Shown here piece by piece: positions 18,741-38,311 of a stretch of 64,000 nt of DNA. The stretch's first letter is position 1; each line of letters begins with the position of its first letter. The notes under the pieces are model-generated. The model saw only the letters and a list, made by a program, of their open reading frames with translations, searched no databases and was not told the origin of the DNA. Made by a program: the position numbers and the translations under genes. Origin of the DNA: a bacterium (lineage in GTDB: Bacteria; Vulcanimicrobiota; Vulcanimicrobiia; Vulcanimicrobiales; Vulcanimicrobiaceae); assembly GCA_021832345.1 (NCBI GenBank), contig JAKBKY010000005.1, forward strand, positions 62,001 through 126,000, given 5' to 3'.

Positions 18741-18796
18741 GATGGGTGAGGTACGCGACGGGGCTTCCAGGGGCCTCGCCGCGAACCGTCACCTGC

Positions 18797-20392
18797 GTGG
18801 ATGAACGGATAATCATCGTCGGTGGGGGTACGATGGGGGCGGGTATCGCCGCCGTCGCAGCGCGCGCCGGTTTCTCAGTCGACCTGGTGGAACCCGACGC
18901 GGCCGCTGCCGAGCGCGCGAAGCAACGACTGGCTCGCGAGGCTGCCCGTGATGCGGGCGCGTGGGCCGGCACAGTCGTGCTCCATGACGCGGTGCCCGAG
19001 AGCAGCGATGCCATCCTCGGGCTCGAAGCCGTCGTCGAAAGCGCGCAGGTCAAAGCCGAGGTCCTGGGGGCGTTGGCGAAGGCACTGCCGGCGGATGCAG
19101 TACTCGCCACCAACACCTCCTCGTTGAGTGTCGATGAGCTGGCGCAGTTCGTCGACCGCCCGGAGCGTTTCCTCGGGCTACACTTTTTCAATCCGCCAAC
19201 CGTCATGGAACTCGTCGAGATCGTGCCTGCGTCCGGGACGAGTGATGCTGCGCTCGCGCGAGCGCGTGAGTTGATCGCGCGTTTAGGGAAGACGAGTGTG
19301 CAGGCATCCGACACCCCGGGGTTTATCGTCAATCGTGTTGCGCGCCCCTACTATCTACAGAGCATGCACGCTCTCGATGAGGGAGTGGGCGCCGTCGAGG
19401 AACTCGATGCGCTTGCGCGAGGCGCCGGCTTTCGCATGGGCCCCTTCGAGCTCATGGATTTGATCGGACTCGATGTGAGTCTGGCAACCAGCGAATCGAT
19501 CTATGAACGAACTGGAGCTGCACGGCTTGAGCCGGTCGCACTGCAACGCACCATGGTTGCCGATGGTCGATTGGGGCGTAAGACCGGGCATGGATTCTAC
19601 GATTACGCCGACGGATCTGCGCCGCGCGTTGATGACGGTTTGCTTGCGGAACCCCAGACACGCAACGAGGATGAAAGCGTGGTCATCATCGGTGCCGGCG
19701 GATTGGCCGACGATCTCGCGGAGCGATTGGCGGAACCGTTTGCTAACGTCACGCGACTGGAGAGCGAGGAGTTCCTCAACGAACTCAGCGCCGCGGCGAC
19801 GATCGTGATCGACGTGGGCGACGGCACCATGGATCGCAGCAGGGTGCTGCGGGAACTCGATGGACTGCTTGCGCCCGAGTGCGTAATCTTTGCCGACGCC
19901 TATGCTACGGATTTGGATGTGACGGCCTCCGCTCTCAAACATCCGGAGCGGCTCGTCGGCTATGGTATTCTCGGATCGCTGGAGCGTCAGCGCGTTGTTG
20001 AAGTCGTCGATCTTGAGCGCGTCTCCGATGATGCCCTCGCACTGGCTCAGGAGGTCTTTGAATCCCTGCTCCGCCGGGTGGTCCTGGTGGAGAATGCGCC
20101 GGGCCTCTTTCTTGGGCGCACCGTCGCATCGATTGTGAACGAAGCCGTCATCGCGGTGCACGAAGATGTTGCCTCGACCGACGATATCGATGTTGCCATG
20201 CGCTTAGGAACGAACTATCCTATTGGGCCGATTGCCTGGGGCCGCGAGATCGGCGGTGCGCGCATCGCTCGCATCTTGCATCGCCTGGCCGATGCGCGCG
20301 GCCCGGCCTTTGCGCCGCATCGTGCGCTGTGGGTTCTGGACATCGACGAAGACGGCGAGGACGCTCTTGAGCTGGATCGGCCGGTACTCTAG
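18797..20392 (+). CDS. 3-hydroxyacyl-CoA dehydrogenase (PaaH-like, duplicated domains)
   Basis: A 531-residue NAD-dependent 3-hydroxyacyl-CoA dehydrogenase. The Rossmann motif VGGGTMGAGIA is at about residue 7-17 and HFFNPPTVMELVEIV (about 130) marks the active site. FIVNRVARPYYLQSMHALDEGV and the DLIGLDV segment complete the first unit. A second, weaker Rossmann region (VVIIGAGGLADDLAE) follows from about residue 295 and a second C-terminal helical domain from about 400 (GLFLGRTVASIVNEAV), as in PaaH/PaaC enzymes. It oxidises a 3-hydroxyacyl-CoA to the 3-keto form for the adjacent thiolase. GTG 18797 is preferred; the frame is open to 18746, which would nearly touch the divergent gene. Confidence 0.87.
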   Translation: MDERIIIVGGGTMGAGIAAVAARAGFSVDLVEPDAAAAERAKQRLAREAARDAGAWAGTVVLHDAVPESSDAILGLEAVVESAQVKAEVLGALAKALPADAVLATNTSSLSVDELAQFVDRPERFLGLHFFNPPTVMELVEIVPASGTSDAALARARELIARLGKTSVQASDTPGFIVNRVARPYYLQSMHALDEGVGAVEELDALARGAGFRMGPFELMDLIGLDVSLATSESIYERTGAARLEPVALQRTMVADGRLGRKTGHGFYDYADGSAPRVDDGLLAEPQTRNEDESVVIIGAGGLADDLAERLAEPFANVTRLESEEFLNELSAAATIVIDVGDGTMDRSRVLRELDGLLAPECVIFADAYATDLDVTASALKHPERLVGYGILGSLERQRVVEVVDLERVSDDALALAQEVFESLLRRVVLVENAPGLFLGRTVASIVNEAVIAVHEDVASTDDIDVAMRLGTNYPIGPIAWGREIGGARIARILHRLADARGPAFAPHRALWVLDIDEDGEDALELDRPVL

Positions 20393-20398
20393 TGCAGG

Positions 20399-20546
20399 CC
20401 GTCAAGCAGATCATATCTTGTCTCGCGGGTCTTTTCGGCCGCTTCGTCGTTGCTCTTCGGTCACGAAGCTACGGCTTCGCTCCCTCATCGCGCCTAGAAT
20501 CGACTCGAAAATTCTTCGCGATCTTAAGATACGCTCTGCTTGACGG
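20399..20546. repeat. Palindromic MITE-like element, copy 1
   Basis: A 148-bp element with 11-bp perfect terminal inverted repeats (CCGTCAAGCAG at 20399-20409 and its complement at 20536-20546). The interior holds the hairpin CGAAGCTACGGCTTCG, part of a 23-bp exact match (20461-20483) to the copy at 43.5 kb. It lies just after the dehydrogenase stop and 10 bases before the thiolase start. Confidence 0.75.
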
Positions 20547-20555
20547 ACTACACTG

Positions 20556-21734
20556 ATGAACGGACGCGATGTGTGGGTGGTCGATGCGGTGCGTACGCCG
20601 ATTGGCCGGCATGGCGGGGCGCTCGCGGATGTGCGCCCGGACGAGCTGGCCGCTTGCGTGTTGCGCGCATTAGCCGAGCGCAACAACCTGGACCCGTCGA
20701 TCGTCGACGACGTACACCTGGGTGCTGCCAATCAGAGCGGCGAGGACAATCGCAATGTTGCACGCATGGCGGCGCTCCTTGCCGGTTTCCCCGTCGACGT
20801 TCCCGGTGCGACGATGAATCGGCTCTGTGGCTCAAGTCTGCAGGCGATCATCGGAGCTGCGCACGCGATCGCCTGTGGTGAGGGCGATGTCATCGTTGCC
20901 GGTGGGGTCGAATCGATGAGCCGCGCTCCCTACGTTATTCCCAAGCCTTCTCGACCGTTTGCGCGTACGCCGGAGATCTTCGATACGACGCTGGGTTGGC
21001 GGATGATCAACGCAGCAATGCCGGCCGAATGGAGGATTCCGCTTGGAGAGACCGCAGAGCGCGTCGCGCGTCTCTATGGAATCAGCCGCGATGAGCAAGA
21101 TCGCTTCGCATACGACTCGCAGTGCAAGTGTGCGGCGGCCCTTGAAGCAGAGGCATTCGACGGTGAACTCATCGCGGTCGGCGCCGTGGCGCGCGACGAA
21201 CATCCGCGACCGGAGACCACGCTCGAAGGATTGGCCCGGCTCAAACCCGCTTTTTCCGCGGACGGAACCGTGACGGCCGGTAACTCTTCCGGCATCAATG
21301 ACGGCGCTTCGGCGCTTCTTCTGGCTTCCGCTGACGCCGCGCGTCGTCAGGGTTGGTCGCCGTTGGCTCGAGTGGTCGCAAGCGGCGTTGCCGGCGTCTC
21401 GCCTGACGTGATGGGCCTTGGCCCCATCCCGGCGACGCGCGTGGCGCTGGTGCGAGCGGGCCTGCAGATCGCCGATCTCGACCTCATCGAGATCAACGAG
21501 GCATTCGCAGCGCAGTCGATCGCCTGCATGCGTGACCTGGAGTTGGATGCGCAAAGAACGAACGTCAACGGTGGTGCGATTGCGTTGGGACATCCACTGG
21601 GGGCCAGCGGCGCGCGCATAGCGACAACCCTGTTGCATGAGCTGGCTCGGCGTAGAGGTCGCTACGGCCTTGCCACCATGTGCATCGGCGTCGGGCAAGG
21701 CATAGCTGCTATCTTTGAGGCAATTTCGCCGTGA
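20556..21734 (+). CDS. Acetyl-CoA acyltransferase (thiolase, PcaF/PaaJ/FadA type)
   Basis: A 392-residue thiolase II-fold enzyme that cleaves 3-ketoacyl-CoA with CoA to acetyl-CoA and a shortened acyl-CoA. The nucleophile is Cys91 in MNRLCGSSLQA. The catalytic histidine is in ALGHPLGASGAR (about 346-357) and the second cysteine in MCIGVGQGIA (about 377). Length and motifs match degradative beta-ketoadipyl-CoA thiolases as well as general acetyl-CoA acetyltransferases. It follows the dehydrogenase and overlaps the aldehyde dehydrogenase by GTGA, so these genes probably form one operon, although MITE copy 1 lies between the dehydrogenase and thiolase genes. Confidence 0.92.
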   Translation: MNGRDVWVVDAVRTPIGRHGGALADVRPDELAACVLRALAERNNLDPSIVDDVHLGAANQSGEDNRNVARMAALLAGFPVDVPGATMNRLCGSSLQAIIGAAHAIACGEGDVIVAGGVESMSRAPYVIPKPSRPFARTPEIFDTTLGWRMINAAMPAEWRIPLGETAERVARLYGISRDEQDRFAYDSQCKCAAALEAEAFDGELIAVGAVARDEHPRPETTLEGLARLKPAFSADGTVTAGNSSGINDGASALLLASADAARRQGWSPLARVVASGVAGVSPDVMGLGPIPATRVALVRAGLQIADLDLIEINEAFAAQSIACMRDLELDAQRTNVNGGAIALGHPLGASGARIATTLLHELARRRGRYGLATMCIGVGQGIAAIFEAISP

Positions 21735-23215
21735 CCGGGAACATCCCCAAAATGCAACTCTTGATCGGAGGGAGATGGCGCGACGCAGAGGGCGGCGGCT
21801 CATACGCCGATGTGAACCCGGCGACGGGGGCCGTGCTCGCGCAGGTTGCCGAGGCGAGCGCGACGGATGTCGATGCTGCGGTGAGCGCTGCCAGGGCTGC
21901 TTTTGAGCGCGGCAAGTGGGCAACGATGCCTGCGGTTCGGCGCGGCAAGGCTCTCTATAAGCTCGCGCAGCTTGTCGGCGAACGGGCAGGCGATCTCGCG
22001 CTGCTGGAGGTGCGTGATAACGGCAAAGCGCTGGCCACGGCCAAGGGCGAGATCGGTGCGCTCGTCGACTGCCTGGAGTTCTACGCGGGCGCTGCCACGA
22101 AAAACTATGGGCAGACGTTGGCGGGCCCAACCGCGTCCTACCTGGCCTACACGTTACGCGAGCCGGTCGGCGTTGTCGGGGCGATCGTCCCGTGGAACTT
22201 CCCCATGCTGCTGGCATCCTGGAAGGTTGCTCCTGCGCTTGCGGCCGGTTGCACGGTTGTCCTCAAGCCCGCGCCCAGCACGCCGCTCTCGGCGCTCGAG
22301 CTTGGCAGGCTCGCGCTTGAAGCCGGTATTCCCGAGGGTGTGCTCAACGTGATCACGGGATCGAGCCGTCAACTTGGCCAGTGGCTCGTCGAACATCCCG
22401 GTGTCGATAAGATCGCCTTTACCGGGAGCACGGCGACCGGCAGAGTCGTCGCCGCCACCGCTGCGCGGAGTCTCAAGCGCGTGACCCTGGAGCTTGGCGG
22501 GAAATCTCCGTCGATTGTTTTCGATGATGCGCAACTCGATGCGGCCGTCAACGGTGCGTTGTACGGGATCTTCTATAACGCCGGGCAGACATGTGAAGCT
22601 CGCTCGCGCGTGCTGGTGCAGGCGGCAATCTTCGATGCGTTTGTTGCCGCGTTCCTCGAGAAGAGCGCGCGAGTGCGCGTCGGCGACCCCGAGAACCCGC
22701 AGACCCACATGGGGGCGATTACGTCGCCGGAGCAGTATGAGAAGATCCGCAGCTACTGTGATATGGGCAGGGTTGAAGGCGCCACCCTCCTTCTCGGCGG
22801 CTCTCCGGCGCCGGTCGCCGGGTTTGAGGCAGGTCTGTTCTGGAGCCCGACCGTCTTCGCGGCGGCGGCGCATCATCGCATTGCGCGAGAGGAGATCTTC
22901 GGCCCGGTCGTCACCGTTGCGCCGTTTGGCACCGAGAGCGAGGCGATTGCGCTGGCGAACGATTCGGAGTACGGTCTTTCGGCCAGCGTGTGGACGCGAG
23001 ACCTAGGACGCGCGGGCCGCACAGCGGCGGCTCTTCGTAGCGGAACGGTGGCGGTCAACACGCCCTATGCGGTCTTTCCCGGCATCCCGTTCGGCGGATA
23101 CAAGCAGTCGGGCTACGGGCGCGAACTCGGCATGGAAACGATGGCGCTCTACAGCGAGACCAAGAGCGTCATCACCTATCTCGGCACCAAGCCGATCGAT
23201 CCATTTGGAGTGTAG
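21731..23215 (+). CDS. NAD(P)-dependent aldehyde dehydrogenase
   Basis: A 494-residue aldehyde dehydrogenase. Cofactor and active-site elements are present: VVGAIVPWNFPML (about 145-157), the glycine motif FTGSTATGR, the general base Glu in LELGGKSP (about 254) and nucleophile Cys288 in NAGQTCEAR. It oxidises an aldehyde to the acid or CoA-pathway intermediate. Similarity by eye is to betaine/phenylacetaldehyde/aminobutyraldehyde dehydrogenases, so the exact aldehyde is not determined. The GTG start overlaps the thiolase stop. In this cluster it could handle an aromatic or ring-opened semialdehyde. Confidence 0.9.
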   Translation: MTGNIPKMQLLIGGRWRDAEGGGSYADVNPATGAVLAQVAEASATDVDAAVSAARAAFERGKWATMPAVRRGKALYKLAQLVGERAGDLALLEVRDNGKALATAKGEIGALVDCLEFYAGAATKNYGQTLAGPTASYLAYTLREPVGVVGAIVPWNFPMLLASWKVAPALAAGCTVVLKPAPSTPLSALELGRLALEAGIPEGVLNVITGSSRQLGQWLVEHPGVDKIAFTGSTATGRVVAATAARSLKRVTLELGGKSPSIVFDDAQLDAAVNGALYGIFYNAGQTCEARSRVLVQAAIFDAFVAAFLEKSARVRVGDPENPQTHMGAITSPEQYEKIRSYCDMGRVEGATLLLGGSPAPVAGFEAGLFWSPTVFAAAAHHRIAREEIFGPVVTVAPFGTESEAIALANDSEYGLSASVWTRDLGRAGRTAAALRSGTVAVNTPYAVFPGIPFGGYKQSGYGRELGMETMALYSETKSVITYLGTKPIDPFGV

Positions 23216-23977: not shown

Positions 23978-25549
23978 TTAGACGCTTGACGCGCCGGCTC
24001 CTGGACCGCGTTGTTGCGGCCTAGAGGCAATCGCTTCGATGCGGTCGCTGATCGAGCGCAGCTCCTCGTCGCGTGGGTACGCCAGGATTGCGCTGTGGTC
24101 GGAGAGCGCTTGGCTGCTTAACTCCTGCCAACGATCGCCCGCTTCCAGCGCGATCACGCGGCAGTGGTGCTCGCGCGCGGTCCGCAGGAGCTGCCGGGCA
24201 TCGGCCACATAGGCGGCGTCGAAGTCGTGCGCCAAGGCGAGATCGACCCGCTCGGAGCTGTCGTCGAGCATGAGGACGCCGAGTTCGCGGAGGCGGCAGG
24301 CGCCGGCGACCGCAAGGCTGCGTTCATCGATGCCTGCAAGCGCTACTCCGGGAGCTTGCAGGTCGAAGGCGGCGGCTACGCCCAGTGCCATGATCGTCGA
24401 CAGGATCACGGTCGCCACGATCACGAGGAAGAGCGTTCCGGCAAGGTGTTCTCCGCCGCGTATCCCCCACGCCGGGAGCTGCGTTGCGTAGTACGTGGCT
24501 AAGGAGACGGCGACGATCCCGCGTGGGAACATCGTAAACGTCGCCAGGCGCTCGCGCCAGTCCATTCCGGAGCCTAGCGTCGCAAGCAGCACCGTCACCG
24601 CCCGCAGGATCAGCAGCGTGGCGACCAGAGCGGCTCCCACCCCGAGCAACGGGCCCATCGCGTGAATGTCGATCTGTGAGGAGAGCAGGACGAAGACCGT
24701 CGAGAGGGCCAGCATCGAGAGGTCCTCTTTAAAGACCTGCAGCGGGCGGGCGTTGGTCAGCGACTTGATATCGAGTACGAGTCCGCAGGCGATGACTGCG
24801 GTCAGGCCGCTTTCGTGAGCGACGAGTTCGGCCAGAGCATAGGCGCCAAAGCCGATGGCGAGCGCCGCGAGCTTGCCGACGTCGCTTGGCAGTCGCATGA
24901 GCCGCGGGAGCAGCCAGCGTCCGAAGATGCCGACCGCGAGGCCGACGAGTACGCCCAGGCCCAGCCGCCAGACTCCCTCGATCGTGGTACTCCACCGGCC
25001 GTCTGCCTCCGTCGTGAAGGCGGCGAAGACCGCCGCGGTGACGACGACTCCGGTCGCGTCCAGAACTAAGCCTTCGGTTTCGAGCAGATGTGAGAGCTTC
25101 GGCCGAAAGCGTAAGCGCGCCAGCAGCGGTCCGGTGACGGTTGGTCCGGTAACGACGCAGACGGCCGCCACCAGATCCGCTACGATCTGGGTCAAACCAA
25201 AGGCCCGGCCGACGCGCGGCAGGACGAGCAACGCCAATGCCGGGCCGATCAGGACGAGTTTGATGAAGGTCGCCTTGGGGATGTTGTCGAGGTTCATGCG
25301 CAGGGTCGCTTCGAAGAGCACGATGACGACTGCGAGGGAGAGCAAGGCGCGGGTGCTTGGGTTGGTCAGATCGATGTGAAACCAGCCCAAGCCGCTTGGG
25401 CCGGCCAGCAGACCGAAGGCGAGCAGCGTAATGAGCGACGGGATGCCGAAGCGCCGCAAGGCGTAGCGCGCCGAAAGCGCCGCCAGCAGGACGAAGACCG
25501 CACCCAGTTCGACCGCGAGCGAAGGGTAATGAGCGAGCGTCTGTCCCAT
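23978..25549 (-). CDS. Cation:proton antiporter (CPA1/NhaP-like)
   Basis: A 523-residue membrane protein with about 12 hydrophobic segments across residues 1-400, of the sodium/hydrogen exchanger family. Markers are VVIVLFEATLRMNLDN (about 73-88), CVVTGPTVTGPLLARLRF (about 131-148) and the LLETEGLVLDATGVVV stretch (about 154-169). The cytoplasmic tail from about 405 resembles a degenerate TrkA-N-type nucleotide-binding domain (LRELGVLMLDDSSERVDLALAHDFDAAYVAD). It exchanges Na+ or K+ for H+ at the inner membrane. Its ATG overlaps the PaaX-family gene's stop, so both share a transcript; a link with aromatic acid metabolism is possible but unproved. Confidence 0.85.
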   Translation of the reverse strand: MGQTLAHYPSLAVELGAVFVLLAALSARYALRRFGIPSLITLLAFGLLAGPSGLGWFHIDLTNPSTRALLSLAVVIVLFEATLRMNLDNIPKATFIKLVLIGPALALLVLPRVGRAFGLTQIVADLVAAVCVVTGPTVTGPLLARLRFRPKLSHLLETEGLVLDATGVVVTAAVFAAFTTEADGRWSTTIEGVWRLGLGVLVGLAVGIFGRWLLPRLMRLPSDVGKLAALAIGFGAYALAELVAHESGLTAVIACGLVLDIKSLTNARPLQVFKEDLSMLALSTVFVLLSSQIDIHAMGPLLGVGAALVATLLILRAVTVLLATLGSGMDWRERLATFTMFPRGIVAVSLATYYATQLPAWGIRGGEHLAGTLFLVIVATVILSTIMALGVAAAFDLQAPGVALAGIDERSLAVAGACRLRELGVLMLDDSSERVDLALAHDFDAAYVADARQLLRTAREHHCRVIALEAGDRWQELSSQALSDHSAILAYPRDEELRSISDRIEAIASRPQQRGPGAGASSV

Positions 25550-26424
25550 TATTCGTTCAGTCTCTCTCCACGAAGCGCCTCATTCCCGCCGTTCGGCCGA
25601 GCTGCCGCTTGGTAGAACCGCTCTGCCCTGCGACTGAGCAGGGCGTAGTAGCTGCGAAAGAGTCCGGCCGCCTCGCTGCCGGGCCAGGGCGCAGGCAAGA
25701 GGGCGCTCGGCAGGCCTGGGTCAACGTAGGCAAACTTGCGGTAATCGTGGACCAGCCACATCCGGGCAAGGAAGGCGTGGGCGTCGTCGAGTGCCGGCGC
25801 GATGCGCTCTGCAGCCAGGCGTGGCGCGTAGGTGGCGATGAAGGCAGCGTAGCGACCGGCGATCGCATCGAGGTCCCAGCACCGGGTCACCAGGTCGCGG
25901 TCGCTGCTGGGGCCTTGGTACTCTCCAACGAACAGGTCGATTCGGTCGATGAGGTTCAGGGCCTGCGCGGCCGAACGGGCGGTCTCGATGTTGCCTGAAG
26001 GCGTCACCCAGGTCGAGGCCGAGAGCGGAGCCCAGCCGAGGACGGCAAGGTCCTTGCGCAGCCGATCGCGCCCGTCCCGCCGCGACTCCGGCACACTGTA
26101 GGTCAGCATACGCCAGCGCCCGTCCCACTCTGCGAGCGGGCCGTAGATCCGGGGGCTGATCGCGTCGATTCGCGCCCGGCCGCGTTCGGTTACCGCGTAG
26201 GCAGAACGGTTCCCGAGCCGGCGGGCCGCCAGCCATCCCTGGTGTGACATCCGGGAGACCGCCTGGCGAACTGCGGCCTCCGAGAGGCCAAACTCGCCCA
26301 TGAGGTGTACGAGGGCTCCGATCCAGAGTTCGTCTCGTGAGGCCGGATCGCGATGGACGAAGTCGCCGTAGAGGGTATAGATGAGCGACATCGGGCGGGT
26401 GACCCGACGCGGCTCGCTTGACAC
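25549..26424 (-). CDS. PaaX-family transcriptional repressor
   Basis: A repressor of the PaaX type, which in the phenylacetate pathway binds phenylacetyl-CoA and leaves its operator. The N-terminal winged helix includes SLIYTLYGDFVH (about 13-24), GLSEAAVRQAVSRMSHQGWL (about 46-65) and GNRSAYAVTERGRARI. The middle contains WRMLTYSVPESRRDGRDRLRKDL and the C-terminal PaaX domain ends near FRSYYALLSRRAERFYQ. Start GTG 26424 is preferred because it leaves a palindrome at 26445-26483 outside the gene; the frame is open to ATG 26466. It is divergent from the BoxB-like oxygenase, the most likely target. Confidence 0.88.
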   Translation of the reverse strand: MSSEPRRVTRPMSLIYTLYGDFVHRDPASRDELWIGALVHLMGEFGLSEAAVRQAVSRMSHQGWLAARRLGNRSAYAVTERGRARIDAISPRIYGPLAEWDGRWRMLTYSVPESRRDGRDRLRKDLAVLGWAPLSASTWVTPSGNIETARSAAQALNLIDRIDLFVGEYQGPSSDRDLVTRCWDLDAIAGRYAAFIATYAPRLAAERIAPALDDAHAFLARMWLVHDYRKFAYVDPGLPSALLPAPWPGSEAAGLFRSYYALLSRRAERFYQAAARPNGGNEALRGERLNE

Positions 26425-26444
26425 GCCTCCGAGGGGAGGGCTAG

Positions 26445-26483
26445 TATAACGGTATTCTCGCGGCATAAATAAAAATCGTTATA
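26445..26483. promoter_or_regulatory. Putative PaaX operator: spaced inverted repeat
   Basis: TATAACG (26445-26451) and its complement CGTTATA (26477-26483) are separated by about three helical turns (32 bp centre to centre), in the AT-rich gap between the divergent PaaX and BoxB-like genes. The AT-rich tract AAATAAAAAT between them could hold the promoter. Site assignment to PaaX is an inference from position. Confidence 0.5.
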
Positions 26484-26532: not shown

Positions 26533-27660
26533 ATGGCGCGCATCGCGACCTTCGATGACTGGATGGACCTGCTGGGGCAGTGGCAGACGGAGATCGGGCT
26601 CGATCGAGACCTGATCGAGCGCTACGTCCCCGGGTATCGGTTCGAGGCGAAGTACGGGCAGTTGCCGGTCTCTCAGATTACCTTCGGCGACTTCAAAGGT
26701 GAGCAGCGCTGGGAGAAGGTCCTCCAGATTCCCGATCAACGGATGCGCGATGCGGTCATGAATATGATCGTCTATCAAGGGGATACGGAGTTCGCGAGCA
26801 ACGAGCAACAACGCTTCCTCGTTAACAATGCACCGTCTGAATACGACCTAGCGTCGCTCATTCGCATCATGGTCGAGGAGACCCGCCACGGCTTTCAGAT
26901 GTGCCATCTCCTCGTAAACCATTTCGGGAGCGAGGGCAGAATCGAAGCCCAGAAGATGCTCGAACGCCGCGCGTTCGGCAAGAAGAACCGGCTGCTCAAT
27001 GCCTTTAACGAAGATGTCACGCATTGGCTGGATTTCTTCGCCTACACGAACTTTATGGACCGAGACGGCAAGTTCCAGCTTACGATGCTCTCCCACTCCG
27101 CCTTCGCTCCGCTGGCCGCGTCGATGGACCCCATGTTGCGCGAGGAAGCGTTTCACATGGGGACGGGCTTAACCGGGCTACGCCGCATTGCGAAGGCGGG
27201 GGTCATCCCGGTATCGCTTCAACAAAAATTCTACAACAAGTGGATATCGGGATCGCTCGATCTCTTTGGGACGGATCACTCAGGTTCCGCGCAGTGGGCC
27301 TACGCTTGGGGCATCAAAGGGCGCGTCGATGAAGACACCGCCGCCGAACCCGCCGATCGCGAGCATCTCAACGAGCGTGCGCGCAGCCAGTTTCATGACG
27401 AGGTCGCCAAGACGGTCGAACGAGTCAACGAAGTCAATGCATCGCAAACCAAGTTTTACGTTCCGGATATGCGTTTCAACCGTAAGATCGGCTCGTATGC
27501 CGGCGAGTATTGGAGCGTTGACGGTCGCCGAATGAGCGCCGGCGAATGGGCAGCCTATGCGCCGACCGTGTTGCCGGCGCAGGCCGATGACATCGAGCTT
27601 GTGGCCTACTTCAAGAACCCGGATTGGATCGCGCCCAAAGGCAATCTGCGCGAAGCCTAG
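26533..27660 (+). CDS. BoxB-like di-iron CoA-ester epoxidase
   Basis: A 375-residue ferritin-like di-iron oxygenase that aligns by eye with BoxB, the benzoyl-CoA 2,3-epoxidase component: QGDTEFASNEQQRF, EYDLASLIRIMVEETRHGFQM, FNEDVTHWLDFFAYTNFMDRDGKFQL, EEAFHMG, SLDLFG and the C-terminal FNRKIGSYAG. Candidate iron ligands are Glu86, Glu116xxHis119 and Glu205xxHis208. BoxB is usually about 470 residues; this protein lacks about 100, mainly around residues 10-60 and 230-300. It would insert one oxygen atom into an aromatic CoA ester, using electrons from a reductase (BoxA or PaaE type) not found here. It is divergent from PaaX. Its TAG stop lies inside MITE copy 2. Confidence 0.85.
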   Translation: MARIATFDDWMDLLGQWQTEIGLDRDLIERYVPGYRFEAKYGQLPVSQITFGDFKGEQRWEKVLQIPDQRMRDAVMNMIVYQGDTEFASNEQQRFLVNNAPSEYDLASLIRIMVEETRHGFQMCHLLVNHFGSEGRIEAQKMLERRAFGKKNRLLNAFNEDVTHWLDFFAYTNFMDRDGKFQLTMLSHSAFAPLAASMDPMLREEAFHMGTGLTGLRRIAKAGVIPVSLQQKFYNKWISGSLDLFGTDHSGSAQWAYAWGIKGRVDEDTAAEPADREHLNERARSQFHDEVAKTVERVNEVNASQTKFYVPDMRFNRKIGSYAGEYWSVDGRRMSAGEWAAYAPTVLPAQADDIELVAYFKNPDWIAPKGNLREA

Positions 27661-27780: not shown

Positions 27781-28635
27781 ATGAGCACCACCAACGGCAC
27801 AACCACGGCGACCCCTTTTGGACGCGAGGCCCGTCGTTTTGAGGGCATACGCGTCGTCAACTATTGGAAGGAGGGGCACGTCGCATTTGTCGAGATGGAC
27901 GACCCTCCGGCCAACACCTACACGCATGAGATGATGCGTCAGCTCGACGAGGCATTTCTCGATGCGCGGTTCGATAACGACGTTGAGGTGATCGTGGTAA
28001 CGGGCAAGGGCGAGAAGTTTTTCTCGGCCGGCGCCAACATCGCCATGCTCAACGCCGTGACGCCGGAGTTTAAGTATATGTTTTGTCTGCATGCTAATGA
28101 GACGCTGAGCCGGCTTGAGCAGACACCCAAACTCGTGATCGCCGCTCTCAACGGACATTGCGTGGGCGGCGGGCTCGAGATTGCCATGGCCTGCGACGTT
28201 CGTATCGCGCGCAAGGAAGCCGGCAAGATCGGCCTTCCTGAAGTCTCCCTCGGCGTGTTGCCGGGAACCGGCGGCACGCAGCGCCTCACGCGTTTGGTTG
28301 GGAAGTCGCGCGCCATCGAACTGATGGTGACGGGCAAGACGTTTAGCTTCGAACAGGCGCAGGACTGGGGGATCATCAGCGAACTCTTTGAGGGCAATGC
28401 GGCATCGTTCCGCGAGCAGGTCAGTGCATACGCCAAGCAGTTCTGCTCGCCGAATAAGGCTCCCATGGCGGTCGGTCACATCAAGCGCTGCGTGCAGACC
28501 GGTGCCGAACTGCCGCTGCAGGATGCCCTCGCTCTCGAACGGGAGCTGCAATCGTTGCTCTTTAAGAGCGGGGATGCGAAGGAAGGAATCGCCGCCTATA
28601 ACGAAAAGCGCGTCGCGCGTTTTTCGAATCGATAG
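27781..28635 (+). CDS. Enoyl-CoA hydratase/isomerase family protein
   Basis: A 284-residue crotonase-fold enzyme. Oxyanion-hole segments are FFSAGANIAML (about 81-91) and NGHCVGGGLEIAMACD (about 123-138); the catalytic glutamate region PEVSLGVLPGTGGTQRL (about 153-169) has the second Glu in PEV. It hydrates an enoyl-CoA or cleaves a ring-derived CoA ester. It is an ordinary-length hydratase, not the about 550-residue BoxC. The position behind the BoxB-like gene suggests that it acts on the product of ring epoxidation. A Shine-Dalgarno-like GGGAAG is 7 bases upstream of ATG 27781. Confidence 0.9.
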   Translation: MSTTNGTTTATPFGREARRFEGIRVVNYWKEGHVAFVEMDDPPANTYTHEMMRQLDEAFLDARFDNDVEVIVVTGKGEKFFSAGANIAMLNAVTPEFKYMFCLHANETLSRLEQTPKLVIAALNGHCVGGGLEIAMACDVRIARKEAGKIGLPEVSLGVLPGTGGTQRLTRLVGKSRAIELMVTGKTFSFEQAQDWGIISELFEGNAASFREQVSAYAKQFCSPNKAPMAVGHIKRCVQTGAELPLQDALALERELQSLLFKSGDAKEGIAAYNEKRVARFSNR

Positions 28636-33000: not shown

Positions 33001-33567
33001 CTCGTCTACGGCTACTATCCGGCAGCCGGAATCGAAAACGACATCGTCTTCTATGCGCCGGAGGATCCGTCCGTGGAGGTTGCGCGCTTTACCTTTGCGC
33101 GTCAAGTGGGAGGAGAGCACCTGTGCTTGGCGGATTACGTGGCCGCTCCTCAAGACGGACGCGGGGTCGATGTCGCGGCGTTGCAGGTTGTGACCGTTGG
33201 AGGCCCGGTCGGCCAACGCATCGGCGCTCTCCAGCATGAGGGCGACTATAGCGGCTCCTATTTTTTGCACGGCTTTACGGTGGCGGCGGCCGAGGCACTG
33301 GCCGAGTGGGCGCATCGGCGTATTCGTACCGAGCTTGGCTTGGATGCGGATCGAGGCAAGCGCTACTCTTGGGGTTACGGCGCTTGCCCGGACCTCTCGC
33401 AGCACGAACTGGTCTTTGCGTTGCTCGACGTGAGAAACGCGATCGGCGTGCATCTCACCGAGGCCTTTCAAATGGTGCCGGAGCAGTCGACCGCCGCCAT
33501 CGTCTTGCACCATCCGGCAGCCGCCTACTTCAATGCGGGCGCCGTGCGAGAAGTGGCCCCGGCGTAG
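30064..33567 (+). CDS. metH: Cobalamin-dependent methionine synthase
   Basis: A 1167-residue enzyme that moves a methyl group from methyltetrahydrofolate to homocysteine through cobalamin. All four modules are present. The homocysteine domain (about 1-320) has zinc cysteines in LNCSTGP and GGCCGTTPDH. The pterin domain (about 345-620) starts at LVGERINAQGSRR. The cobalamin unit (about 650-880) has DVHDIGKN with the lower ligand His744. The reactivation domain (about 900-1167) holds ELWPHFDLRSLYRLSW and RYSWGYGACPDLSQ. The start is GTG 30064. No riboswitch precedes it. The B12 uptake locus at 44-48 kb could supply its cofactor. Confidence 0.96.
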   Translation: MSDYLRRLRERVLVFDGAMGTQLMSLELTADDFGGQRYQGCNEALVLSRPKIVQAIHESYLAAGADVVETDSFTASRLKLEEYGLGERTLEINHAAAQLARQACDAFSTPQWPRFVAGSMGPTGMLISSSDPSLSAIDFEQLAAIYGEQARALVEGGVDLLLLETMQDLLELKAAVAGIRREFARGVRRVPIQAQPTLITEGRMLLGTDIRAICAVLGALEIEVIGLNCSTGPAQMRDAVRYLAENSRAYLAVIPNAGLPLMGPNGETIYPETAQELAHELTEFVRDFGVEIVGGCCGTTPDHIAELVRVLGQTEPRRRPHPVDSEMPDPDPQRVASAMTAIDLAQVPRPLLVGERINAQGSRRLKRLLLAEDYDAIALLAREQVESGAHVLDICCAVTERVDEDIQMREIVRKLTQSVEAPLMIDSTEPRVVETALQNYPGRAIVNSVHLEAGRAKIDVVVPIAREHGAAVVALTIDEAGMAKTAQRKLEVAKRIYNIVVDEYRLPAGALIFDDLTFTLATGDPEFADSALETIEGIRAIKAQLPGVLTSLGVSNVSFGLKPTARAALNSVFLHHCVTAGLDCALVHPKEITPYAELDAQAREHCDDLVFNRRPDALARLIEFFEASGDAGSAGASESVESVDAPPEVQIHQAILRRRKDGIEAKIDAALQMRTAVQVLNEILLPAMKDVGDKFGSGELILPFVLQSAEVMKRAVAHLEQFLDRKEGTTKGTVVLATVFGDVHDIGKNLVGTILTNNGYTVHDLGKQVPMNAILEKAVEVGADAIGLSALLVSTSKQMPICVQEQDLRGLQFPVIVGGAAINRDFGRRISLLSDGTRFFDPGLFYAKDAFEGLEIVDTLTGDASKRAQLLERARREALAQRAKDSALKARANAPILYSQVRSHPVDLPKAPFLGARTLSSVDMRELWPHFDLRSLYRLSWGAASLKGEEFDKLVREEFEPRLHAFQRDASRERWLEPRLVYGYYPAAGIENDIVFYAPEDPSVEVARFTFARQVGGEHLCLADYVAAPQDGRGVDVAALQVVTVGGPVGQRIGALQHEGDYSGSYFLHGFTVAAAEALAEWAHRRIRTELGLDADRGKRYSWGYGACPDLSQHELVFALLDVRNAIGVHLTEAFQMVPEQSTAAIVLHHPAAAYFNAGAVREVAPA

Positions 33568-33610
33568 ATGGGCGAAGGGAAGATCGGGACCGCGCACTAA
33601 CCCCGTCCCC

Positions 33611-34828
33611 ATGCGTTCGTTGCAATCTCTCGCGTGGCAGCTCGCTGTAGCCGCCGCCCTGCTCAGTGCCTGTTCCCAATCCGGGCATAGCGCTGCGAGC
33701 AAGACCATCCGCATAGGAATCGATCTTCCCCTCTCGGGAGCCGATGCGTCGGTTGGTCAAAGTACGCTCAACGGCATGGTGTTGGCAATCGAGCAAGCCG
33801 ACGCGAAGGGCCTGCCCGACGGGTTCGTCCTCAAAGCCTATCCACTGGACGATACCGTGCAGGGAATCCACAACCCGCAGCAAGGTGTTGCCAACATCCG
33901 CACCTTCGTCTCCAATACCGATGTCCTCGCCGTGTTGGGACCGTATAATTCCAACGTAGCCGCCGCTGAAATCCCCATCACCAATGCGGCAGGGCTGGCT
34001 CAGATTGCGCCCTCGGTGGTGGCCGACGAACTGACCCTTGGCCCGGCAGCCGCCGCGCTACGCCGTGTCCATCCCAAGACCAACGCCTTCTTTCGCGTCT
34101 GTACGACGGACTCGCGTCAGGGATCGGTCGCGGCACGCTTCGCTCGCTCCCTGGGCTTCAAGCGCGTCTACATTATCGATGACAACGAGACCTACGGCTT
34201 AGATATCGCGCGGGTCTTCGCGCACGACTTCACCGCTCTCGGAGGGAAGGTCATCGGCCACGATCATCTCGCAGCCGATACGCAAGACTTTCGTGCGTTG
34301 CTGCTCAAGGTTGCCGCCGCGAAGCCGGATCTGGTGTTCTTCGGCGGCGTCACCAGCACCGGCGGCGGGCTGCTTCGCAAACAGATGTTCGCGGTCGGCC
34401 TTGGGAGGGTGCCGTTTATGGGCGGAGACGGGATTGCGGATCTTGCGACCGTTGCCGGGAAGTACGCCGACGGCACCTATTTCACGGTTGCTGCTCCTGA
34501 TGTCACGAAGCTTCCCTCCGCGCGCAGCTTCGTTGCGGCATATCACAAGCGCTTTCATCAAGCACTGGGCGCCTATAGCGCCAATGGATACGCTGCAGCG
34601 CAGGTGGCCATCGCGGCGATCGCCTCCGCCCTCAAGCGCGACGGCGGGGCGTTTCCAACACGAGCGGCAGTCTTGCGCTATGTAGCGGCGACGAAGGATC
34701 TGGCGACTCCCATCGGCCCCATCACCTTCGATGCAGCCGGCGATATGAAAAACCCGGTACTGAGCCTCTATACGTTTAAGAACGCCAAGCCGGTATTTAT
34801 CAAGTTGTTCAAATTGAAGACGCAGTAG
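33611..34828 (+). CDS. livK: Branched-chain amino acid ABC transporter substrate-binding lipoprotein
   Basis: A 405-residue type 1 periplasmic binding protein of the Leu/Ile/Val family. The N-terminus MRSLQSLAWQLAVAAALLSACSQ has a lipobox with Cys at about residue 21, so it is membrane-anchored. The mature domain starts IRIGIDLPLSGADASVGQSTLNG and includes VLGPYNSNVAAAEIPITNAAG and DDNETYGLDIARVF. It captures a branched-chain amino acid or a related acid, possibly an aromatic compound, and hands it to LivHM. The start ATG at 33611 is set by the signal peptide; the frame is open upstream into metH. It is first in livKHMGF. Confidence 0.9.
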   Translation: MRSLQSLAWQLAVAAALLSACSQSGHSAASKTIRIGIDLPLSGADASVGQSTLNGMVLAIEQADAKGLPDGFVLKAYPLDDTVQGIHNPQQGVANIRTFVSNTDVLAVLGPYNSNVAAAEIPITNAAGLAQIAPSVVADELTLGPAAAALRRVHPKTNAFFRVCTTDSRQGSVAARFARSLGFKRVYIIDDNETYGLDIARVFAHDFTALGGKVIGHDHLAADTQDFRALLLKVAAAKPDLVFFGGVTSTGGGLLRKQMFAVGLGRVPFMGGDGIADLATVAGKYADGTYFTVAAPDVTKLPSARSFVAAYHKRFHQALGAYSANGYAAAQVAIAAIASALKRDGGAFPTRAAVLRYVAATKDLATPIGPITFDAAGDMKNPVLSLYTFKNAKPVFIKLFKLKTQ

Positions 34829-34832
34829 CGCC

Positions 34833-35744
34833 ATGCACGAGTTTTTTGCGCAACTCGTTAACGGCATCGCGCTTGGTGGGATCTATGCCCTGATCGCACT
34901 GGGCTATACGATGGTATACGGCATCATCGAACTTATTAACTTTGCCCATGGCGATGTCTATACGCTCGGCTCATTTTTTTCGTTGACCATCCTTGGCGCC
35001 CTTGGCGTGTCCGGTGAAGTTCGCGGGCCATTGCTAATCGTTGACGTCGGAGTTACGATTATCGGTGCCGCTATGCTCTGCGGAATCGTCGGCATTCTTA
35101 TCGAGCGTTTGGCTTACCGTCGCCTGCGTTTCGCCGGTCGTTTGGCACCGCTGATTACCGCAATCGGGGTCTCTTTCATCTTAGAGAACGTCATGCAGGT
35201 GTGGCGCGGCCCATCCCCGGTCGCCTTTCCCGCAGTATTTCCAACGCATATCTATAACGTCGGCGGCGTGGGCATCAGCCTCCTGCAACTTGCCGTGGTC
35301 ACCCTGGCCATCGGCACGATGCTGCTCTTAGAGTTCTTTGTGCATCACACGCGGTTTGGGCAAGCGATGCGGGCGACGGCGCAAGACCGTGAGGCGGCTA
35401 CGCTCATGGGGATCGACATCAATCGTACGATTGCTCTGACGTTCTTCGTCGGCAGTGCACTTGCCGGGCTGGCAGGCTTCGTCTCGGGAGCCTACTACCA
35501 ATCGACCTGGTTTTTCAATGGTTTCGGGGCCGGTCTCAAGGCGTTTACGGCTGCCGTCTTGGGGGGAATCGGGAACTTAGCGGGCGCGATGCTGGGCGGC
35601 TTTCTCATCGGGATCATCGAGTCGTTTGCAACGTGGAAACTGGGCGGCCAATGGAGCAATGTGACGGTCTTTACGATTCTCGTGCTCACTCTCGTCTTTC
35701 GACCAGCCGGATTGTTAGGTGAGGTGACGCCCGAGAAGGTATGA
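34833..35744 (+). CDS. livH: Branched-chain amino acid ABC transporter permease LivH
   Basis: A 303-residue inner-membrane permease with about 8 helices. It opens FFAQLVNGIALGGIYALIALGYTMVYGIIELINFAHGD, the LivH signature, and contains the EAA-like loop MRATAQDREAATLMGIDINR (about 182-201) that contacts the ATPases, then GNLAGAMLGGFLIGIIES. It forms the pore with LivM. It starts 4 bases after the livK stop and overlaps livM by ATGA, so the operon is translationally coupled. Confidence 0.93.
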   Translation: MHEFFAQLVNGIALGGIYALIALGYTMVYGIIELINFAHGDVYTLGSFFSLTILGALGVSGEVRGPLLIVDVGVTIIGAAMLCGIVGILIERLAYRRLRFAGRLAPLITAIGVSFILENVMQVWRGPSPVAFPAVFPTHIYNVGGVGISLLQLAVVTLAIGTMLLLEFFVHHTRFGQAMRATAQDREAATLMGIDINRTIALTFFVGSALAGLAGFVSGAYYQSTWFFNGFGAGLKAFTAAVLGGIGNLAGAMLGGFLIGIIESFATWKLGGQWSNVTVFTILVLTLVFRPAGLLGEVTPEKV

Positions 35745-36814
35745 TTTTCGTCTATATCGGGTCGACGATCCTCGTGGCGGCCTTCGGGCAGCGCATTCAC
35801 GTGCCCGTTGCCCGCATCGCGGTGTATGTGGGCCTTGCGCTGTTGTTGAGCGTTGGCCCTGTGCTCGGTTTGGGCAGCGATGCGACGCTGAATACGCTGG
35901 CCGATGCGGGCATCTTCGTTCTCTTAGCGCTTGGACTGAATATCGTGGTGGGCTTCGCCGGCCTCCTCGATCTTGGTTACGCGGCGTTCTTTGCTATCGG
36001 AGCGTATACGTACGCCATGTTGGCGAGCCCGCAGTTCGGGGTGCATCTTCCGTTCTGGGTGTTGCTCTTTGTCGGTGCCGCTTTGGCTGGAGCATTTGGG
36101 ATCATCTTGGGATCGCCGACGCTGCGCTTGCGCGGCGACTATCTGGCGATCGTGACCCTGGGATTTGGGGAGATCGTCCCGCAGGTGTTTCAAAATCTTA
36201 CGCGCTTTACCGGAGGCCCCAACGGCATCGCCGCGCTTGACTTCCCCTCGCTCTTTGGGCGCTCGTTTGGAACGGCCGCGTTCCCCTACTACGAGGTCAC
36301 GTTGGGGCTGATCGGCGTTGCCCTGGTGACCGCGCGTAATCTACGATCGAGCCGGATCGGTCGAGCGTGGATGGCTATTCGTGAAGACGAGTTGGCGGCG
36401 CGTCATCTGGGGATCAATACGACTCGCATGAAGCTGGCCGCCTTTGCGATCGGTGCGGCGTTTGCCGGCGTTGGAGGCGTGGTGTATGCGGCCAAGCTGA
36501 GCCTGGTATCACCGGATCTCTTCCAATTTCAAGTCAGCATCCTGGTTCTCTCGATGCTGGTGCTCGGCGGTATGGGGAACATCGCTGGGGTCGTTATCGG
36601 AAGCTTGGTCTTGACGCTCGTCAATCAGGTAATCTTACCGCAATCCAACGTTTTGGCCCAGGCTGCGCACCTCCCCGTCAATCTTTCCAATGCGCATTTC
36701 TTTATCTATGGCGGCATTTTGGTCGCGATCATGCTCTTTCGACCGGAGGGGCTGCTTCCAAGCGCTCAGCGGCAGGCCGAACTCCACGAGAGCGTACAGG
36801 CCGACGGTGTCTGA
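35741..36814 (+). CDS. livM: Branched-chain amino acid ABC transporter permease LivM
   Basis: A 357-residue permease. The LivM core NIVVGFAGLLDLGYAAFFAIGAYTYA (about 67-92) and GSPTLRLRGDYLAIVTLGFGEI (about 125-146) are clear, with the coupling loop MAIREDELAARHLGINTTRMKL (about 211-232). It is the partner of LivH. It overlaps livH by ATGA and runs 8 bases into livG. Confidence 0.93.
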   Translation: MIFVYIGSTILVAAFGQRIHVPVARIAVYVGLALLLSVGPVLGLGSDATLNTLADAGIFVLLALGLNIVVGFAGLLDLGYAAFFAIGAYTYAMLASPQFGVHLPFWVLLFVGAALAGAFGIILGSPTLRLRGDYLAIVTLGFGEIVPQVFQNLTRFTGGPNGIAALDFPSLFGRSFGTAAFPYYEVTLGLIGVALVTARNLRSSRIGRAWMAIREDELAARHLGINTTRMKLAAFAIGAAFAGVGGVVYAAKLSLVSPDLFQFQVSILVLSMLVLGGMGNIAGVVIGSLVLTLVNQVILPQSNVLAQAAHLPVNLSNAHFFIYGGILVAIMLFRPEGLLPSAQRQAELHESVQADGV

Positions 36815-37586
36815 GGGCAGCGCGGTGCTTCAGGTCGAGGGGGTGAGTCGCTCCTTCGGCAAGTTGGTGGCGTTGCATGACGTTTCCTTACGGGTCGATG
36901 CCGGGAGCATCGCCGGAGTTATTGGGCCCAACGGCGCCGGCAAGTCCACCCTGTTCAACCTGATCACCGGCCTTGGACGCCCGGAGAGCGGCACGATTCG
37001 ATTCTCCGGGAAGCGGATCGACGGACGGCCGACGTATTGGATCGCGTGCTTGGGGATCGCACGCACCTTTCAGAACCTGCGTCTCTTTCCTCATGCCACC
37101 GCGCTGGAGAACATCCTGACGGGCGAGCACGTGCGGCTTCGATCGAACCTGCTCGAGGATTTGGTGCGAACTCCCGGACAGCGAAGAGAAGAGGAGCAGG
37201 CGCGCGCGCGAGCGTTCGAGTTATTGCATCTGGTCGGCTTGCGCCGTGCTGCGAATGTTCGCGCAGCAGCGCTCTCGTACGGCGATCAACGTCGTCTGGA
37301 GATCGCGCGTGCGCTGGCAAGCCGGCCTCGTTTACTGTTGCTCGATGAGCCGGCTGCCGGTATGAATCCGGTGGAAAAGGACGGACTGGCCGAGCTGGTG
37401 CGGACGATTCATCGCACCGGTATGACCGTGCTCCTCATCGAGCACGATATGCGCTTCGTCATGGGCCTGTGCGAGCATCTCACGGTACTCGATTATGGGG
37501 AGCGCATTGCCGACGGAGTTCCGCAGGCGGTGCGGGAGAATCCTCGCGTCATCGAAGCCTATCTTGGAAGCGAGCTACCTGCGTGA
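36807..37586 (+). CDS. livG: Branched-chain amino acid ABC transporter ATP-binding protein LivG
   Basis: A 259-residue ABC ATPase from GTG 36807. Walker A GPNGAGKST, a Q-loop in ARTFQNLRLF, the signature variant LSYGDQRRLEIARAL, Walker B LLLLDEPAAGMNP and the H-loop in LIEHDMRFV are all present. The LivG type is shown by the extended region between Q-loop and signature (GEHVRLRSNLLEDLVRTPGQRREE) and by the YGDQRRLE signature. It powers import with LivF. Confidence 0.93.
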   Translation: MSEGSAVLQVEGVSRSFGKLVALHDVSLRVDAGSIAGVIGPNGAGKSTLFNLITGLGRPESGTIRFSGKRIDGRPTYWIACLGIARTFQNLRLFPHATALENILTGEHVRLRSNLLEDLVRTPGQRREEEQARARAFELLHLVGLRRAANVRAAALSYGDQRRLEIARALASRPRLLLLDEPAAGMNPVEKDGLAELVRTIHRTGMTVLLIEHDMRFVMGLCEHLTVLDYGERIADGVPQAVRENPRVIEAYLGSELPA

Positions 37587-38311
37587 GCACTTCTGCGGCC
37601 GGCTCGATGCTCGATGTACGCGATCTTGTGGTTCGCTACGGCGGTGTGACCGCGCTGCACGGCTGCTCGTTACATGTGGATACAGGAGAGATCGTCGCGC
37701 TGCTCGGCGGTAACGGTGCAGGCAAGACCACGATGCTACGGAGCATCAGTGGCTTAGTGCGACCGGCGAGCGGGAGCGTTGCATTTCTGGGGCGTTCGCT
37801 GTCGGGCACGGCGCCCTTCAACATCGCTCGCTCCGGGCTCGTGCATGCACCCGAAGGACGCCGGATCTTTACTCGCATGACGATCCGCGAGAACCTGGAC
37901 CTGGGTGCTTATGCCGTTCGTTCACGCCAAGAAGCCGATCGTCGCCGGCAAGAGGTGCTCTCCATCTTCCCCCGCTTGCAGGAGCGACTGGATCAGAGCG
38001 CAGGCACACTCTCGGGAGGTGAACAGCAGATGCTGGCAATCGGCCGAGCGTTGATGGCGGGGCCGCAGTTACTCCTGCTCGACGAGCCGTCTCTTGGGCT
38101 GGCCCCGCTCTTTGTCCAGACGATCTTCAAGGTTATACGCGAAATCAATGAACGAGGCACGGCGGTGTTATTAGTCGAGCAGAATGCGCGCGCGGCGCTT
38201 CACATCGCTGCGCGTGCCTATCTTCTGGAGAACGGATGCATCGTACGAGAAGCCTCGGCAGAGGCGATGCTCGATGACCCGTCGGTAGTCGCAGCGTATC
38301 TCGGCGCTTAG
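37583..38311 (+). CDS. livF: Branched-chain amino acid ABC transporter ATP-binding protein LivF
   Basis: A 242-residue ABC ATPase from GTG 37583, overlapping the livG stop (GTGA). Walker A GGNGAGKTT, the LivF-type stretch LVHAPEGRRIFTRMTIRENL, signature LSGGEQQMLAIGRALM, Walker B LLLLDEPSLGLAP and the H-loop in LLVEQNARAAL are present. It pairs with LivG. It converges with the nagA gene with a 4-base overlap, which ends the operon. Confidence 0.93.
   Translation: MSTSAAGSMLDVRDLVVRYGGVTALHGCSLHVDTGEIVALLGGNGAGKTTMLRSISGLVRPASGSVAFLGRSLSGTAPFNIARSGLVHAPEGRRIFTRMTIRENLDLGAYAVRSRQEADRRRQEVLSIFPRLQERLDQSAGTLSGGEQQMLAIGRALMAGPQLLLLDEPSLGLAPLFVQTIFKVIREINERGTAVLLVEQNARAALHIAARAYLLENGCIVREASAEAMLDDPSVVAAYLGA

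Follow-up and report, generated by a model that had tools for sequence, protein, structure and literature searches.

The window, a 64,000-nucleotide stretch of a bacterial genome (2.34 Mb, 98% complete), carries at 26533..27660 (+) an ATG-initiated open reading frame of 375 amino acids, which profile, PDB and alignment matches identify as a predicted short BoxB-clade diiron aryl-CoA epoxidase. The BoxB model TIGR03225 matched it with an E value of 6.8e-68 and 229.6 bits, far below the equivalog cut-off of 499.1 bits, and the PaaA model TIGR02156 gave only 3e-8 and 33 bits (cut-off 280). The protein shares 39% identity with BoxB and about 20% with PaaA; its closest solved structure by sequence is BoxB 3PER (E 1.4e-55), followed by 4MUD and PaaA chains. 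A genome-wide search with TIGR03225, in which the best stretch reached 187.5 bits, returned a single BoxB-like gene. The nearest named contigs are Candidatus Eremiobacterota metagenome-assembled genomes, with 71–83% identity in the epoxidase protein, and a scan of viral contigs for diverse relatives found none.

An earlier note on this DNA had described the protein as matching BoxB motif by motif while being about 100 residues shorter, and both descriptions hold. QGDTE, EETRH, EEAFH and FNRKIG all fall at BoxB positions. Set against the approximately 475 residues of BoxB, the short form retains little of the N-terminal extension, is missing two internal inserts of about 16 and 21 residues, and has no C-terminal tail. 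A tree built with true BoxB, PaaA and PaaA-like proteins united BoxB with the short forms at 100/100, leaving PaaA outside. The true BoxB proteins of Eremiobacterota and Mycetohabitans formed a single 100/100 branch and the close short forms a branch of their own beside it (94/97); distant short forms (43–53% identity; genomes G010, G132, G133 and G140) were placed around the tree base. The phylogeny, proposed earlier as a check, puts the protein on a branch of its own next to BoxB and does not assign it to any family whose proven role is a different one. Although it would work like BoxB, the protein fails both the BoxB equivalog cut-off and the partner tests described below, and we therefore class it within a BoxB-related family, not as BoxB itself.

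Immediately downstream, at 27781..28635 (+), lies the ordinary-size enoyl-CoA hydratase gene recorded earlier, which encodes a single-domain crotonase (ECH) of 284 amino acids. We propose it as the ring-opening partner of the epoxidase, a counterpart of BoxC but not BoxC itself. Both catalytic glutamates are kept. No dihydrolase with two crotonase domains, as in a box cluster, adjoins the epoxidase, and the idea that the ECH is half of a BoxC is ruled out by its position outside the BoxC branches of the tree and by its 27–30% identity to BoxC N-domains. Its nearest PDB relative is 2PPY, which we take to be a Geobacillus kaustophilus protein; a relative of this genus has an aerobic benzoyl-CoA route. 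BoxC of the box pathway is a binding partner of BoxB and lifts the inhibition of BoxB by its product (PMC4498308); an obligatory ECH beside the epoxidase fits such a role here.

The nearby dehydrogenase, thiolase and aldehyde dehydrogenase genes are also real; the distance given earlier as 6 kb is 3.3–7.8 kb upstream, on the same strand (18746–23215). They encode a PaaH-like 3-hydroxyacyl-CoA dehydrogenase (HCDH) of 548 amino acids with the two-part PaaH architecture (18746..20392, +), a PaaJ/PcaF-like 3-oxoadipyl-CoA thiolase of 392 amino acids with 56% identity to E. coli PaaJ (20556..21734, +), and an aldehyde dehydrogenase (ALDH) of 494 amino acids (21731..23215, +). The ALDH is closer to the free-standing enzymes encoded in aryl-CoA clusters of Thermus, haloarchaea and G010 (43–49% identity) than to PaaZ (28%). 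Downstream of the module, the window encodes a branched-chain-type ABC importer (33533–38311; binding protein, two permeases and ATPases), for which aromatic-acid uptake is a possible function. An importer of this type also lies near short BoxB at locus L098, and a binding protein near that at L030.

Repressor, operator and gene linkage

Divergent from the epoxidase gene, as the earlier note had stated, is a gene for a PaaX-like repressor (25549..26466, −) whose N-terminal, Cas2-like and C-terminal PaaX Pfam domains all scored over cut-off. Its true start is uncertain, with a GTG at 26424, and its match to TIGR02277 (226 bits) falls just below the equivalog cut-off of 264.6. A predicted sigma-70-like promoter (TTGACA, 18 nt, TAGTAT; 26418..26447, +) is overlapped by the inverted repeat TATAACGGTATT-N15-AAAATCGTTATA at 26445..26483, the outer half-sites of which form the putative operator dyad TATAAC-N27-GTTATA. 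The E. coli PaaX site, TGATTC(N27)GAATCA (PMC9493321), has the same layout of two 6-bp half-sites and N27 spacing, but the half-site letters differ. The 33-nt offset of the half-sites was fixed in 17/17 sites examined in relatives, and the full dyad occurs once in the 2.34 Mb genome. A position weight matrix scan of 1.76 million positions rose above threshold solely at BoxB promoters and at the promoter of the fused operon at L035, before HCDH. A second operator, upstream of the HCDH–thiolase–ALDH genes in the window's own genome, was considered and rejected, as neither the dyad search nor the matrix scan placed a site there. Because a conserved operator with PaaX-type spacing sits on the promoter, the PaaX-type control of the epoxidase suggested earlier is, as a prediction from sequence, well supported.

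A PaaX gene with a PaaX-type N27 operator, together with PaaJ- and PaaH-like partners, is also compatible with an enzyme that, as a single subunit, epoxidizes phenylacetyl-CoA in place of PaaABC(D)E. In that case PaaX would sense phenylacetyl-CoA, and ECH, ALDH, HCDH and thiolase would act as PaaG/F, PaaZ, PaaH and PaaJ, respectively. However, the module lacks the MaoC domain of PaaZ, and further points bearing on this alternative emerged from the pocket residues and from other genomes.

Wherever the contig was long enough, ECH directly follows the short form (30/30 loci), a PaaX gene is near (28/32), and HCDH and thiolase genes (19/19) and an ALDH gene (18/19) lie upstream. Region order is also conserved for unrelated neighbours (MetH, asparaginase and NUDIX), so that synteny alone overstates functional linkage and is weak evidence. 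The case for linkage is strengthened by rearranged contexts that keep the genes together. At L032 and L035, a single operon unites HCDH, thiolase, ALDH, BoxB and ECH; ALDH, ECH and BoxB are direct neighbours in the distant genome G010; and a gene of the benzoate-CoA ligase family follows BoxB–ECH in G077 (L098; 569 bits) and lies just downstream of them at L030 (584 bits), both above the cut-off of 375.

Predicted active site and missing partners

In BoxB, the diiron centre is bound by Glu120, Glu150, His153, Asp211, Glu240 and His243, Gln116 holds the thioester and the Thr210–Asp211 peptide sets regioselectivity (residue roles after PMC5489048). The six ligands are kept in 33/33 relatives in our alignment and correspond to predicted E86, E116, H119, D176, E205 and H208 of the epoxidase. 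Of the seven residues of the benzoyl pocket, five (Gln116, Thr119, Ser123, Phe193 and Phe203, the first being the predicted substrate glutamine Q82) are likewise kept in 33/33, and two differ in all of them, with Tyr in place of Phe206 and Met in place of Thr210 (predicted Y171 and M175). PaaA has His, Ser and Gly at BoxB positions 116, 119 and 123. An AlphaFold2 prediction on 20 close relatives was too poor to use (pLDDT 51.7), and the pocket was therefore judged by alignment alone. Since the substrate-side residues of BoxB are kept and positions 206 and 210 altered, unlike PaaA, the pocket looks suited to a thioester of the benzoyl type but altered at its ring end, and a CoA ester of that type is the probable substrate.

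The same residues, BoxB-like and not PaaA-like, argue against a phenylacetyl-CoA substrate, as do the membership of the linked ligases in the benzoate-CoA ligase family and the absence of PaaK from this genome and from most short-form genomes. A slimmed benzoyl-CoA 2,3-epoxidase that does the job of BoxB on benzoyl-CoA itself is a further explanation, favoured by 39% identity, by retention of all ligands and five of the seven second-shell residues, and by the benzoate-CoA-ligase-family genes linked in two loci. It has to contend with a score far below the BoxB equivalog cut-off, with the lack of a BoxC-type partner and with the fixed Tyr and Met substitutions, one of which falls in the peptide that sets BoxB regioselectivity (PMC5489048).

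Genome searches revealed neither BoxA, PaaE and PaaK nor a PaaA besides the short-form gene, and no PaaB or PaaC was noted beside the epoxidase. In these searches for BoxB, BoxA, PaaA, PaaE and PaaK, part of the check proposed earlier, a full set of box or paa genes did not come to light at any other place in the genome. The sole NAD_binding_1 match is PyrK, beside PyrD, so that, with neither BoxA nor PaaE present, no reductase for the epoxidase was identified in this genome. One ligase of the benzoate-CoA ligase family is encoded (330 bits; cut-off 375), unlinked to the module; among those compared, it is closest to the ligase of a Haladaptatus PaaA-like cluster (40%).

The earlier description of the locus as lacking BoxA and BoxC is accurate in that this genome has no BoxA and the adjoining crotonase is a one-domain protein outside the BoxC branches. 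The weight placed on it is not. BoxA above cut-off was found in 0/149 Eremiobacterota genomes, including the 14 with above-cut-off BoxB, and its absence is therefore not special to the short form; it was rejected as a mark of the short form and as evidence of a distinct route. Given that BoxA is missing even where true BoxB is present, some other electron donor must serve both enzymes in this phylum.

Distribution across Eremiobacterota

Bacteria of the phylum Eremiobacterota (WPS-2) abound in acidic and cold soils; because most have never been cultured, their diet is largely a matter of guesswork. Among 149 genomes of the phylum, the BoxB model matched in 104, 14 of them above cut-off, and the short form, counted from the profile-match table, is present in 84. 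The shortness, first taken as an oddity of one gene, therefore defines a family. Weak BoxB-model matches were also seen in G134–G137, large genomes of about 8 Mb in family f14, and in G007 and G008 of family f6; one of these, at L068:10309-11619 (G137), is a more divergent BoxB relative with 31% identity that keeps all ligands but has a different pocket. The distant short forms of G132, G133 and G140 have transporter, FtsY and SecE genes as neighbours, which give no pathway clue.

Above-cut-off BoxB is missing from 81 of the 84 short-form genomes, as a BoxB substitute would predict. The remaining three, G029, G030 and G031, carry both forms, and in one of them the true box cluster (L064) has its own BoxC, ligase and HTH-shikimate-kinase (BoxR-type) regulator. 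This coexistence makes another aroyl-CoA substrate for the short form plausible, and together with the fixed pocket changes it leads us to regard turnover of plain benzoyl-CoA as unlikely, if the stronger of the single-substrate alternatives to be weighed. The short form and above-cut-off PaaA are near-exclusive (both in 2 genomes, short form only in 82, PaaA only in 12; Fisher p = 0.001, uncorrected for relatedness), in keeping with phenylacetyl-CoA as substrate. G029 and G031, however, keep the short form although PaaK, PaaZ and a PaaE-like reductase are encoded in a paa cluster apart from it. Taken with the pocket residues and the ligase type, this weakens a simple replacement of PaaA, which we consider improbable.

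The paa clusters of these two genomes hold a protein of 342–364 amino acids (L086:11253-12278, −, in G029; L087:16217-17308, −, in G031) with the ferritin-like diiron motifs DEQNH and DEGRH and no match in Pfam, NCBIfam or the PDB. It takes the place of PaaABC alongside PaaX, PaaZ, PaaJ, PaaK and a PaaE-like 2Fe-2S reductase. The protein is present in 20/149 Eremiobacterota genomes and, recorded as 'hypothetical protein', in Vitreoscilla, Variovorax and Nonomuraea; in the two annotated neighbourhoods inspected, a 2Fe-2S reductase follows it and aryl-CoA genes lie around it. We consider it a candidate for an unrecognised aryl-CoA oxygenase family.

The wide retention of the short form in small genomes (2–3 Mb) of diverse genera, the single operator in the window's genome and the fact that no linked ligase or uptake gene has been shown to belong to the epoxidase could also point away from external aromatics, towards an endogenous or detoxification substrate or another diiron oxidation. 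The co-conserved thiolase, HCDH, ALDH and ECH form the normal tail of aryl-CoA catabolism, and the pocket is BoxB-like; we therefore give such a non-catabolic role very little credence.

Proposed pathway and comparison with known systems

The reading towards which we lean, and which we hold to be slightly more likely than not, is a compact single-subunit BoxB-clade aroyl-CoA epoxidase that works with a ring-opening crotonase, is repressed by PaaX and feeds 3-oxoadipyl-CoA β-oxidation. The epoxidase would bind an aroyl-CoA thioester of the benzoyl type, the ring or binding mode probably being unlike that of plain benzoyl-CoA, and with O2 and two electrons form a ring epoxide that passes to the adjoining crotonase. 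The latter, standing in for the two-domain BoxC, would hydrate the ring and open it, giving a semialdehyde for the aldehyde dehydrogenase to oxidize. β-Oxidation via 3-oxoadipyl-CoA to succinyl-CoA and acetyl-CoA would then be completed by the PaaH-like dehydrogenase and the PaaJ/PcaF-like thiolase. The PaaX-type repressor, on its TATAAC-N27-GTTATA operator, would keep these genes silent as long as no aryl-CoA intermediate is present.

The hybrid of box and paa elements first suggested draws support from the separate branch, the synteny and the two pocket changes, but no longer from the missing BoxA or the shortness of the protein. Overall, the findings point to an undescribed variant of 'CoA plus oxygen' aromatic-ring breakdown that is widespread in Eremiobacterota. 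More tentatively, and less probably than not, it may join box and paa as a third way of cleaving rings aerobically through CoA esters, defined by a compact BoxB-clade epoxidase, a one-domain ring-opening crotonase, a reductase different from both BoxA and PaaE, and an aroyl-CoA other than benzoyl- or phenylacetyl-CoA. If the proposed pathway is correct, a minimal BoxB-type epoxidase needs about 375 residues, BoxA is replaceable and PaaX regulation through N27 operators extends beyond phenylacetate. For the 84 of 149 genomes with the short form, it offers one concrete, testable prediction: aerobic use of aromatic acids via a CoA ester.

Compared with BoxB (TIGR03225; PDB 3PER and 3PM5), the short form shares the clade, the six iron ligands, Gln116, Thr119, Ser123, Phe193 and Phe203, a single catalytic subunit and a crotonase gene next to it. 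It differs in being about 100 residues shorter, 39% identical and below the equivalog cut-off, with Tyr for Phe206 and Met for Thr210; in its surroundings, PaaX takes the place of a BoxR-type regulator and a one-domain ECH that of BoxC, and BoxA is absent. With PaaABC(D)E and the paa operon it has in common the diiron superfamily, the PaaX-type repressor, the N27 operator and the PaaH- and PaaJ-like lower pathway. By contrast, it is only about 20% identical to PaaA, its pocket residues are BoxB-like and its module is without PaaB, PaaC, PaaE, PaaK and PaaZ.

The nearest relatives found for the ECH (40–41%) lie in PaaA/B/C/D-like clusters on Thermus thermophilus plasmid pHB5018c (L102) and on a Haladaptatus salinisoli plasmid (L103), and these clusters, with G010, also hold the nearest ALDH relatives found (43%). 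The epoxidase there is a PaaA/B/C/D-like complex and not a short BoxB. In Haladaptatus, the cluster also includes a pair of CoA-transferases and a ligase of the benzoate-CoA ligase family, like the surroundings of short BoxB in G077. The ECH–ALDH–ligase cassette of the short form may be shared with the PaaA-like clusters of Thermus and haloarchaea.
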